64,000 nt of DNA from NCBI RefSeq assembly GCF_026616195.1, contig NZ_JANHDH010000001.1, positions 682,001-746,000 of the forward strand, in the 5' to 3' direction. The position numbers were made by a program, and so were the translations under genes. The stretch is from Haloarchaeobius amylolyticus (GTDB lineage: Archaea; Halobacteriota; Halobacteria; Halobacteriales; Natrialbaceae). Shown piece after piece: positions 39,325 through 47,425 of this stretch. Within the stretch, counting starts at the first letter, position 1; every line of letters begins with the position of its first letter. Under the pieces are notes generated by a model. The model ran no database searches and was not told where the DNA came from. It was given only the letters and a program-made list of their open reading frames with translations.

Positions 39325-40392
39325 ATGCAGATCAAGGAGCGGGTGCAGGTCGACGGGCGCTCGGAACGCATCACGCTCGTCCCCGAGACCATCGACGACC
39401 TGTGGCACCTCCAGTACGTCCTCGAACCCGGCGACCTCGTCGCCGGCGACACCACGCGCCGCATCCAGCGCGACGACGAGCAGTTGCGCGACACCGGCGG
39501 CGAGCGCGAGCACATGCACGTGACCATCGGTGTCGAGGAGGTGGAGTTCCACAAGTTCGCGAACCGCCTGCGGGTGTCGGGGACCATCGAACGCTGTTCC
39601 CGCGAGGACCAGCTCGGCCTCCACCACACGCTCAACGTCGAGGAGCACGACGAGATCGAGGTCGAGAAGGTGTGGAAGCCAGACCAGCTCGACCGGCTCT
39701 CGGAGGCCGAGGAGTCCGCGGACAACCCGGACGTGGCCATCGCGACCGTCGAGGAGGGCGAGGCGCACATCCACACCGTCGCCCAGTACGGCACCGAGGA
39801 CCGCGGGAGCTTCACGGGCACGACGGGCAAGGGCGAGTACGCCCGGGGTCGCTCGGAGCTGTTCGCGGAACTGGCGCAGGCGCTGGCCCGGATGGACGTC
39901 GACGCGGTCATCCTCGCCGGTCCCGGCTTCACCAAGCAGGACGCGTTCAAGTACATCGAGCAGAACCACCCCGAGGTCGCCGAGAAGACGACCATCGTCG
40001 ACACCGCCTCGGTGGGCGACCGGGGCGTCCACGAGGTGCTCAAGCGCGGCGCGGTCGAGGACGTCCAGCGCGAGACCCGCATCGCCGAGGAGGCCGAGTA
40101 CATCGACGAGCTGACCGCCCGCATCGCGACCGGCCACGAGGCCGCCTACGGCCCGGACATGGTCGCGAAGGCCGCCGACTACGGCGCCATCGACCGACTG
40201 CTCGTCCTCGACGAGAAACTGCGCGAGGAGCGCGGGCCCGACGGCGAGTGGGACCTCGACGTGAACGAGCTCATCACGAACGTCGAGCGCAAGGGCGGCG
40301 AGATAACCGTCTTCTCCAGCGAGTTCCCGCCGGGCCAGCAGCTGAAGAACCTCGGCGGCATCGCGGCGCTGTTGCGGTACCGGCTCGATTGA
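39325..40392 (+). CDS. pelA: Pelota (archaeal mRNA surveillance and ribosome rescue factor)
   Basis: The 355-aa aPelota is an eRF1 paralogue that, with archaeal ABCE1 and an EF-1alpha-like GTPase, splits ribosomes stalled on damaged mRNAs. The N-terminal Pelota domain (about residues 1-130) has [18 protein letters not shown]. Middle and C-terminal eRF1-like domains follow; the release-factor GGQ motif is absent, as in all Pelota proteins. Length is typical. Confidence 0.94.
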
Positions 40393-45500: not shown

Positions 45501-46467
45501 CCGACTCGTTCATCGACTCGAGCTGGTCGATCTGCTCGGACAGCGACGGGGAGCCGGACGCCTGGAGTGCCTGCTGGTCCGCCTGCAGTTCCTTGAAGGC
45601 CTCCTGGAGTTCCTGGCCCTCCTGTTTCAGCTGGTCGGCCTGCTGCTGGAGTTCCTGCCCGCGCTGCTGGAGTTCCTGGCTGCGCTCTTGCAGGGCCTGG
45701 AACTCGGCCCTGAGGACGCCCTGGGTCCCGAGGGTGTACGCCTCCTCGACCTCGGACTGGCTCTGGGCGTTCCGCAGGTCCTCGGCGGCCTGCTCGAACG
45801 TCCGGTACTGCGTCTCGTTCAGCGTGACCGACGTGTTCGCCGTCACCTGCTCGAACTGCGTCCGGACGTCGGCGTCCGGGTTCTGGCGCAACTCGGTGAG
45901 TTCGGCCCGCAGCAGCTCTGCGGTCTGGTTGAGCGTCTGGCTGCGCTGTTCGACCTGTGCCCGGTCCTGCTCGAACTGGGCGAAGGACTCGTTCAGCTGT
46001 TCCTGTTGCTGCTGGAGTTGCTCCTGGCGCTGCTGGAGTTCGGCCGCACGAGCCTGCAGCTCGCCCGCCTGCTCCTGCGTGATGGCGGTGATGGCGACGA
46101 TGTTCGAGACGCCGACGATGGCGTTGTCCTCGATGAACGTCTCGTTGATGGTCTGGTTCGACCGCAGCTCCTGCTGGTACTGCAGCGACCGGAGGAGCGA
46201 GTCCTTCGTCAGGACGTTCCCGTCCTGCTGCTGGTTCCTGACGATGACCTGCGTTATCTGTGTGTCCTGGTCGCCCGCGGTGAAGTTCTGGCTGATGTAG
46301 TCCGACGCCTTCGCCTCGGGGGAGTCGCTCTCGAACTGGTCGAGCGAGGAGGAGCTCTCGACGCCGCCTGCCCCCGCGCCGATGGCGACGGTGAGGACGA
46401 GCATGACCACGATGACGATGCGACTGTGCGACGTGATACCGTCTGTGAGCCGGTCGAACGCCTTCAT
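42592..46467 (-). CDS. RND/MMPL superfamily exporter with extracytoplasmic coiled coil
   Basis: The 1291-aa protein has an N-terminal transmembrane helix (about residues 14-34), a large outside domain (about 35-430), a block of about five helices (about 430-600), a second outside domain (about 660-880), a second block of helices (about 880-1030) and a long C-terminal domain with an acidic linker. The first outside domain has a Gln/Glu-rich coiled coil (about 125-330) with QQRQEQLQQQQEQL and LQQRGQELQQQADQL. RND pumps use the proton or sodium gradient to export lipids, drugs or other molecules. Coupled to a TrmB regulator by ATGA overlap. Confidence 0.88.
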   Translation of the reverse strand: MKAFDRLTDGITSHSRIVIVVMLVLTVAIGAGAGGVESSSSLDQFESDSPEAKASDYISQNFTAGDQDTQITQVIVRNQQQDGNVLTKDSLLRSLQYQQELRSNQTINETFIEDNAIVGVSNIVAITAITQEQAGELQARAAELQQRQEQLQQQQEQLNESFAQFEQDRAQVEQRSQTLNQTAELLRAELTELRQNPDADVRTQFEQVTANTSVTLNETQYRTFEQAAEDLRNAQSQSEVEEAYTLGTQGVLRAEFQALQERSQELQQRGQELQQQADQLKQEGQELQEAFKELQADQQALQASGSPSLSEQIDQLESMNESEVDDVLGIVLAESDGENGGSPFAGRALQLMEKNYEPGSTTADARMMIIQQVSQSSSDIQGGGSVADATIDTQLEMQDVAEATSQDNGDEYIVFGFGVISQEIDQSLSDSLAIVGPFALLFVIVTLVVAYRDLLDIVLGLVGIFAVLMWTFGMMGYLDIAFNQIMIAVPVLLIGLSIDYAIHIFMRHREERLDENTPSDVRGSMQYALAGVGIALVWVTATTVIGFLSNLTSPLGPIADFGIVSSWGIVAALAIFGAFIPALKVEADSLLEGWGFDRKKRAFGTGGGRFSQVLKVGSVLAKKAPVVVILVALTLSAAGAYGGSQVSTSFAQEDFIAGEPPEIMYELPEPLKPGEYSAKQNLDYVNDNFQREDSNAQVLIKGGPTDPKTLQALADANRRIDDGAYDTPFAGASGEVNTRSPLTVMAQVAAENESFNRTFTASDTDGDGAPDQNVTGVYDQLFEVAPDQAAGVIHRTDGGSYEAVRLVVPVKGGASTSETTKEMRAIADSVESGAGLADGLVIATGSPVVNEVVQNDLLDTVIQSLVITLVAVFLFLMLAYRITEGSATLGIVTLLPVALSVAWILGTMYLIDMPFNVLTGMITSLTVGLGVAYSIHVSERFNLELGRRDTKWEAMDKTITGTGGALLGSAATTVGGFGVLSVAIFPALQQFGIITALTIIYAFLASVLVLPSLLVVWHRYVGETDDMVQIEEEPEAAPVPAETGKTETDVPAQAATTSPNGGAVDTEQADEEADSAASDDGEWTSLAAADQPATGDEDESAPAGAVPATTPILRGTRTVADETPTPGSEFTASLAIPDAEGRVMLAERVPGTGGEVSELSPRPTSYSMVGRRLYVLWELDEPTDLSLAYFANVPEDAKAGERLEFESTLRTAAGDGTIEGPAELTVMTPFLRETLETPLTKTTLDEASQKAREGKLTRDELEVLYERWLDGEDDAGAEATTGQDGGADFQG

Positions 46468-46509
46468 GCGGGACTCACCCGTCTGGCGTCGGCGGCTCTG
46501 CTGTGTTGA

Positions 46510-46556
46510 CTACTCATACGACAGTTGTGTTGTTATGAAGCTACTAACAGCAGTTG
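46510..46556 (-). promoter_or_regulatory. Direct repeats in the RND operon promoter
   Basis: CTACTCATACGACAGTTG (46510-46527) and CTACTAACAGCAGTTG (46541-46556) share CTACT...CAGTTG and begin exactly 31 bp apart (three helical turns). They flank a TATA-like TTCATAAC (minus strand, 46532-46539), about 65 nt upstream of the ATG. The TACT-N-AGTT half-sites resemble my recollection of TrmB-family operators, so self-control by the operon's TrmB protein is plausible. Confidence 0.5.
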
Positions 46557-46616
46557 CATCATAAACCCACTGCTATCGGCGAACTGAATAAATAGAATTG
46601 AACGGGTAATCGGTTG

Positions 46617-47351
46617 CTACTCGATGGTCAGCGACAGCATGTCGTCGGCGATGCGTACGTCGCCGTCGTACGATTCCGCGATGGAGTCGAGCATGTCGCC
46701 GTGCTCGCCGTGGGTGTGCGGGTAGAGGTGGGTGAGGTAGACGCGCCCGATGTCGCGCCCGGCGAGCGCCTCGCCGAGTGTCGCGGGCGTCGGGTGGTTC
46801 GACACGTCGATGCCGTCCGGGAACGAGCAGTCGTGAGCCAGCACCGCGGCCTCGTCGGCGAACTCGGTCAGGTCGCGGAACGCCTCGCTGTCGCCAGAGA
46901 AGACGAACCGGTCGTCGAAGCGATACGCCAGGCAGGGCATCGAGTGGCGCGTCTCGAAGGCCCGCACGTCGAAGCCGGCCACGGAGAAGGGTTCGTCGGC
47001 ACCGACCTCGCGCACCGTCAGGTCGACGCGGCCCTGCAGGTAGTCGTGGACGTCGAGCAGGCCGTCCACGAGGTCTTCGGTGCCCGCAGGCCCGACGACC
47101 TCCAGCGTCTCCTCCCCAGCCAGCCAGCGCGCCTTCAGCAGCGCCATGAGGTCGGAGACGTGGTCGAGGTGGTGGTGCGTGAGCAGGACCGTCTCGACGC
47201 CCTCGTAGCCGCGGTTCGTGCGCGCGAGGCGGTGCAGGACGCCGCTCCCGCAGTCGACCAGCAGGGGCTCGTCGTCTTCGAGCAGGATACCGGTCTGGAC
47301 CCGGTCGCCGGTGGGCATCGCGCTCCCGGTTCCGAGGAAGGTGACTCGCAT
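46617..47351 (-). CDS. RNase Z-like metallo-beta-lactamase hydrolase
   Basis: The 244-aa protein starts MRVTFLGTGSAMP and carries THHHLDHVSDLMAL (HxHxDH) plus His in VYLTHLYPHTH and Asp in FSGDSEAFRD. The start at 47351 (rather than 21 nt upstream) gives the family MRVTFLGTG start. Members include tRNase Z and arylsulfatase-like phosphodiesterases. The long exosite arm of tRNase Z is not evident, so it is probably not the tRNA-processing enzyme. Confidence 0.86.
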   Translation of the reverse strand: MRVTFLGTGSAMPTGDRVQTGILLEDDEPLLVDCGSGVLHRLARTNRGYEGVETVLLTHHHLDHVSDLMALLKARWLAGEETLEVVGPAGTEDLVDGLLDVHDYLQGRVDLTVREVGADEPFSVAGFDVRAFETRHSMPCLAYRFDDRFVFSGDSEAFRDLTEFADEAAVLAHDCSFPDGIDVSNHPTPATLGEALAGRDIGRVYLTHLYPHTHGEHGDMLDSIAESYDGDVRIADDMLSLTIE

Positions 47352-47425
47352 GTGCGAGTGCCCACGGGCCACGGGGAAAGCCCTGACGCTCCCCGGGGGC
47401 CCGACCGCGCCGAACCGAGCCGACC

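Follow-up and report, generated by a model that had tools for sequence, protein, structure and literature searches.

How is an exporter gene of the RND type controlled in a haloarchaeon when the gene for a TrmB-family regulator lies in the same operon, and how do ribosomes reach its start codon? This question is raised by a locus of Haloarchaeobius amylolyticus in which the gene for an RND/MMPL protein is followed by trmB with an ATGA overlap (Table 1), an RND-TrmB operon that a preliminary description of this DNA had rightly recognized. All coordinates refer to the window, which is the whole stretch of 64,000 nucleotides that was analysed. The preliminary description attributed control of the operon to a direct repeat, CTACT...CAGTTG, present in two copies around a putative TATA box and recognized by the TrmB protein of the same operon. 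The analysis presented here points instead to a conserved palindrome and to a short open reading frame (ORF) in front of the exporter gene, and the explanation that we consider probable is an autorepressed operon in which a minicistron, irrespective of its peptide, hands ribosomes on to the exporter gene by termination-reinitiation.

Table 1. Features of the RND-TrmB locus and their coordinates in the window
Feature	Position	Strand	Remarks
TrmB-family regulator, 260 aa	41813..42595	-	Pfam TrmB 6.7e-22; start overlaps RND stop as ATGA
RND/MMPL (HAE3-like) membrane protein, 1291 aa	42592..46467	-	Pfam MMPL 1.7e-33
Minicistron, 17 codons (MSSQHSRAADARRVSPA)	46464..46517	-	Stop TGA overlaps RND start as ATGA
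SD-like GGTGA inside minicistron	46475..46479	-	7 nt before RND start 46467
Repeat unit 1 of the preliminary description, CTACTCATACGACAGTTG	46510..46527	+	Overlaps minicistron start codon; unit not conserved
Predicted operator, 22-bp palindrome TGTTAGTA-N6-TAACAACA	46528..46549	-	Left half 46549-46542, right half 46535-46528; 16/16 consensus positions
TATA-like sequence between the repeats, TTCATAAC	in 46530-46539	-	Equals operator right half-site
Repeat unit 2 of the preliminary description, CTACTAACAGCAGTTG	46541..46556	+	Overlaps operator left half-site; unit not conserved
Putative TATA box TTTATG	46560..46565	-	Proposed from sequence; relatives have similarly spaced TATA-like words
MBL-fold RNase Z-like hydrolase	46617-47372	-	Next upstream gene of the RND-TrmB operon; ends at 46617

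The operon and its orthologs

By domain, the product of the exporter gene is an RND-like membrane protein, which exceeds the cut-off of the MMPL domain in Pfam (116.4 bits vs 20.5). With the NCBIfam HAE3 model TIGR00921 it gives 3.4e-64 and 217.1 bits, which is below the curated cut-off of 351.9, and membership of the HAE3 subfamily is not claimed. The TrmB-family regulator is above the curated cut-off of PF01978 (77.6 bits vs 25.6), and its 59.1 bits fall below the cut-off of 500 of the Halobacterial TrmB model, which represents the VNG1451C type (NCBIfam NF047392). Among the 29 orthologous loci L002-L030, 18 have a match to the MBL-fold gene, with partial matches at locus ends counted, so the neighbourhood is partly conserved. 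Elsewhere in the window (39325-40392, + strand), a 355-aa protein with eRF1 domains 1-3 is encoded, the length of which suggests that it may be Pelota/Dom34 and not a release factor.

Two sets of orthologs were collected. For the first set, the RND and TrmB proteins were searched in 100 genomes, including that of H. amylolyticus, and the stretches around the best 80 TrmB matches listed were taken; an upstream RND match was found in 72 of the 80 loci and the RND N-terminus in 71 (L100 is cut by a contig end, and L073 was placed by hand). The named set was obtained by a scan with an alignment of 30 regulators, from which the best 80 of 153 loci were taken; 73 of these had an RND start, and removal of 25 duplicates of the first set left 48 to be added. 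Together, the two sets comprise 119 distinct upstream regions, in which the RND start codons were picked by homology, without reference to any short ORF.

A conserved palindrome in front of the exporter gene

The predicted operator is a 22-bp palindrome that recurs in nearly all of these upstream regions. Within 200 nt, a score of at least 11/16 is reached in 68 of the 71 first-set operons, and 20 of the 71 have the full score of 16; among 355 control sequences of each kind, the same threshold was reached by 6 coding stretches and by 23 resamplings. When both sets are combined and 250 nt are allowed, the operator is found in 113 of the 119 distinct regions, the six without it before RND being L117, L123, L125, L178, L207, and L223; because some of the counted loci had served for the initial visual reading of the consensus, the 48 added regions, 45 of which are positive, provide the fairer figure. 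A search of the open-licence literature returned, among the matches listed, no publication on this site, an absence that is weak evidence.

The palindrome is also specific in its distribution. The pattern GTAN6TAACAACA has 86 sites in the 100 genomes, 62 of which, from 57 genomes, are located 5′ of an RND-TrmB operon, on the operon strand, and the remaining 24 do not exceed the 34 matches of the reversed control. In the genome of H. amylolyticus, with three mismatches allowed, there are two matches, namely the perfect site and its shifted match on the other strand, as compared with three for the reversed control. Judging from these counts, the operator appears to be practically confined to the RND-TrmB operon.

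Tandem operators are present in 18 of the 68 first-set promoters; their most frequent spacing is 36-38 bp (10 of the 18), and in one case it is 31 bp. A TATA-like sequence lies between the tandem operators in the sequences inspected, and the second operator of some relatives is located upstream of TATA. The window promoter has one strong operator, and apart from a shifted match of the same palindrome (11/16 at 46552) its best other score is 9/16; since this is no better than control level, a second weak operator is not claimed. Two RND-TrmB operons, L101 and L113, occur in one genome (G031), and in both a pair of operators is combined with a minicistron of 9 codons. Another arrangement is observed in L127, L141, L215 (Halorussus-type), L134, and L218, which have no minicistron and carry a second operator-like copy about 25-26 bp from the first, near the RND start.

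TrmB as the likely ligand

As the palindrome is dyad-symmetric and local to an operon that encodes a winged-helix regulator, TrmB is its probable binder. The proposal that the TrmB protein of the operon binds in its own promoter is thus likely to hold for the conserved palindrome, and it does not hold for the direct repeats. Palindromes with the same half-site before two solitary trmB genes likewise point to TrmB: the RND-less genes of L220 (Halovenus carboxidivorans) and L224 (a Halobacteriales MAG) have such a palindrome just upstream, with 13 and 14 of 16 positions to a perfect version, respectively. In addition, three operons are led by another gene and carry a palindrome of the same type before that gene (L117, 13/16; L223, 13/16; L207, 12/16); the palindrome before the leading gene of L178 (11/16) is near chance level, and L125 is unexplained. 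As for the protein, all of the 30 regulators carry the identical motif VPRSQVY in the winged helix, and an AlphaFold2 model (mean pLDDT 85.3, pTM 0.58) shows a C-terminal domain in addition to a winged helix and a long helix. By sequence and fold, the regulator matches TrmBL2 and TrmB (E-values down to 1.9e-14, but low TM-scores of 0.36-0.52), as well as PLD-fold proteins.

It is rather unlikely that another regulator, and not the TrmB of the operon, binds the palindrome, or that the palindrome represents a core-promoter element of the gene family, considering its dyad symmetry, its near confinement to the RND-TrmB operon, and the two solitary trmB genes preceded by the same half-site. Such a possibility draws its weight from 12 RND-less trmB relatives without a convincing site in their loci, which comprise all eight of the first set (L088, L092, L094, L116, L142, L143, L144, and L146) and four of the six tested in the named set (L189, L200, L208, and L225). 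These loci have chance-level matches only (10-11/16), and the site is therefore not carried by every trmB of the group.

Promoter layout and the sign of regulation

A TATA box had been proposed between the two direct repeats, and a TATA-like sequence is indeed present there; yet it is the right half-site of the operator, and TTTATG, read from 46565 to 46560, is better placed. TATA-like words are centred 32-34 nt before the short-ORF ATG in 65 of 102 regions and 43-46 nt before it in 17 of 102, the latter being the group of the window, and the operator sits between the TATA-like word and the short ORF. Neither a sigma-70-like promoter nor a terminator was found, and neither is expected in an archaeon. 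Given the published position of the haloarchaeal TATA box at -26/-27 (PMC10817205), the transcription start is predicted near the 3′ edge of the operator, which in the window would be about 19 nt before the minicistron ATG, and strictly leaderless initiation is therefore doubtful in the window, a leaderless transcript being one with 0-5 nt before the start codon (PMC4983044). The spacing of 32-34 nt found in the 65 regions fits a start at, or a few nucleotides before, the ATG, and that of 43-46 nt suggests a leader of approximately 15-20 nt.

Since the operator is located downstream of TATA, and TrmB-family sites downstream of BRE/TATA are reported to repress (PMC4158304), repression is the likely sign of regulation. 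Haloarchaeal TrmB can also activate, and that of Haloarcula hispanica is described as mainly an activator (PMC10817205). Together with the second operators upstream of TATA in some relatives, this would allow TrmB on the palindrome to activate the operon or to play a dual role; nevertheless, such a role is unlikely here, as the conserved copy is the one downstream of TATA, the position of repression in the family (PMC4158304).

A minicistron that ends on the exporter start

Between the operator and the RND start, an ATG is present in 104 of 113 regions, and in 77 it follows the operator by 0-3 nt. In 91 of the 104, the short ORF that begins there stops exactly at ATGA/GTGA (+1); if offsets of -3 to +11 nt from the RND start are admitted, the number rises to 102, only the ORFs of L217 and L226 breaking this rule. 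One feature of termination-reinitiation pairs, a stop that overlaps or nearly touches the downstream start, is thus present in the window, as ATGA, and, with the offsets just given, in 102 of 104 relatives. The 102 ORFs that keep the rule have 9 to 56 codons. In L086, L095, L161, and L194 the minicistron has grown to 41-56 codons, yet its frame is kept, and its end coincides with the RND start or is no more than 4 nt away. By our own count, 25 named genera carry the minicistron frame.

The 91 exact overlaps were compared with two null models of 1000 rounds each: a random frame gave a mean of 24.3 and a maximum of 37, and the true frame with resampled letters gave a mean of 71.8 and a maximum of 82. 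With one common criterion for all genes, a frame of this kind is present at 98 of the 119 RND starts vs 20 of 281 other gene starts; the upstream sequences are related, so minicistron counts such as these are not independent events. At a distance of up to 20 nt from the RND start, 54 of 68 operons have an SD word of at least 5 nt and 12 more have one of 4 nt, with none in the other 2. In Haloferax volcanii, SD sequences are reported not to be used at 5′-UTRs (PMC3986360), and overlapping gene pairs are reported to be coupled, often with the help of SD (PMC6728339); a ribosome-delivering frame at the RND start fits both reports, and it has been proposed in a review that some short upstream ORFs just deliver a ribosome (PMC12548453).

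The same figures bear on the possibility that the short ORF is a by-product and that RND is initiated de novo via SD on an ordinary 5′-UTR. This would be compatible with the nine of 113 operons that lack an ATG between operator and RND start (L127, L130, L134, L141, L145, L147, L215, L218, and L227) and with the SD-like words before the RND start in 66 of 68. On the other hand, the exact overlaps exceed both null maxima, such a frame is far commoner at RND starts than at control starts, and SD initiation at 5′-UTRs is the very mode said not to be used in H. volcanii, which makes a by-product improbable.

The peptide itself is hardly conserved. Over codons 2-10, the 48 and 11 sequences of the two most populated length classes have mean pairwise identities of 0.27-0.35, depending on the codon position, vs 0.27 from composition, and dN/dS is about 0.84 over 44 close pairs. 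The 10 sequences of the 12-codon class resemble one another more than expected by chance (0.39-0.48), perhaps owing to kinship. We reject a conserved leader peptide for the two most populated classes, the sequences of 12 codons being more similar. The structure of the leader RNA is no better than that of shuffles (z 0.30). Although bacterial exporter genes can be under leader-peptide control (PMC7298713), it is in view of the nearly random codons, the dN/dS value, and the unremarkable leader structure very unlikely that the short ORF encodes a sensing leader peptide, with the exporter controlled by ribosomes that stall on it in response to, e.g., an antibiotic; sensing that is independent of the peptide sequence may still take place.

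The CTACT...CAGTTG direct repeats

The repeats from which the preliminary description started do exist, both units being present on the + strand. Their spacing was described as exactly three turns, which is correct for CTACT (46510 and 46541, 31 bp) and incorrect for CAGTTG (46522 and 46551, 29 bp); as the two units are 18 and 16 bp long, three-turn spacing is true for half of the motif only. The pattern CTACTN4-8CAGTTG has two sites in the window vs none in window shuffles, a test chosen after the fact, whereas in the whole genome of H. amylolyticus it has five sites vs seven for the reversed control and is not commoner than expected from that control. When the intergenic stretch with the repeats was resampled 500 times under a first-order Markov model, 29 rounds gave a comparable bipartite repeat. 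Conservation before related exporters had been suggested as a check: the unit occurs twice in the window locus and a single time in L069, the nearest relative, and 69 other operons do not contain it. In view of the genome control, the non-conservation, and the resamplings, we reject the direct repeats as a functional unit, and despite the presence of both units and the 31-bp spacing of CTACT it is extremely improbable that they serve as a pair of sites for cooperative TrmB binding on one face of the DNA. The repeats are mostly coincidence; yet the place was right, for they overlap the conserved control site and the short ORF.

A model of the operon

In the autorepressed operon that we favour, the minicistron, the RND exporter gene, and trmB would form three cistrons under the control of the third. 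A dimer of the TrmB-family protein would occupy the 22-bp palindrome at 46528-46549, between TATA and the transcription start, and block the recruitment of RNA polymerase, and an inducer, perhaps a substrate of the exporter, would free TrmB from the operator. Once the operon is on, the mRNA is expected to have its 5′ end at, or within about 20 nt of, the short ORF. As the minicistron stop overlaps the RND start, ribosomes terminating there are proposed to restart on RND near the SD-like sequence, and a second restart may take place at the ATGA overlap of RND and trmB.

A broader proposal, for which we see the chances as evenly poised, is that a leaderless or nearly leaderless, peptide-independent minicistron serves throughout this haloarchaeal clade as a constant adaptor that connects the promoter with the gene. 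Only its start codon, open frame, internal SD, and ATGA end would be selected, an RND start that is unable to initiate alone would be fed from the 5′ end of the mRNA, and a TrmB-family autorepressor would act just in front. If true, this would be a conserved archaeal case in which the act of translating an upstream ORF (uORF), and not its product, is selected. Because approximately 100 orthologs conserve the coupling frame and not the peptide, the roles of termination-reinitiation and of the internal SD become directly testable in haloarchaea. The analysis also provides a predicted operator, and what may be practically a single-target regulon, for an uncharacterised TrmB subgroup that many Halobacteria have in association with an RND exporter.

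Comparison with known systems

With TrmB and TrmBL1 of Pyrococcus furiosus and TrmB of Halobacterium salinarum (VNG1451C), the system described here shares a winged-helix TrmB-family protein and palindromic sites, and in those organisms sites downstream of BRE/TATA are reported to repress (PMC4158304). The site is different: the published motifs TACTN3AGTA, TATCACN5GTGATA, and TACTN7-8GAGTA (PMC4158304) differ from TGTTAGTA-N6-TAACAACA. The H. salinarum motif TACTN7-8GAGTA is absent from the RND-TrmB promoter and has its sole window site at 1722-1738. That site, TACTCGGCGGTCGAGTA, is a perfect palindromic match, for which the chance mean is 0.09 per window on both strands. The predicted target differs as well, being one RND operon here and sugar metabolism for the P. 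furiosus and H. salinarum members of the family. The best full-length match in sequence and fold is TrmBL2 (PDB 5bpd, 5bqt, and 5box), which likewise has a winged helix plus a C-terminal domain; however, identity is 19-20% and the TM-score 0.36-0.45, and TrmBL2 is a chromatin protein by PDB title, whereas the regulator studied here has a local, practically single-target predicted site.

As regards translation, the minicistrons resemble the uORFs in 5′-UTRs of H. volcanii, which are also short (15-31 aa) and precede genes of normal size (PMC4983044). Unlike the minicistrons, the 16 uORFs of that species lie in leaders of 150-250 nt and were judged to be likely protein genes, and in the available text of that account (PMC4983044) no coupled frame conserved across genera is described and no RND gene is listed. 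The junction itself is like the ATGA termination-reinitiation sites of H. volcanii, in that an ATGA overlap is combined with an internal SD; coupling has been shown for 13 of 14 gene pairs from H. volcanii and E. coli together (PMC6728339). What sets the present case apart from the coupled pairs of H. volcanii is the upstream cistron, a short ORF (9-56 codons) whose peptide is barely conserved and from which coupling to the exporter gene is predicted.
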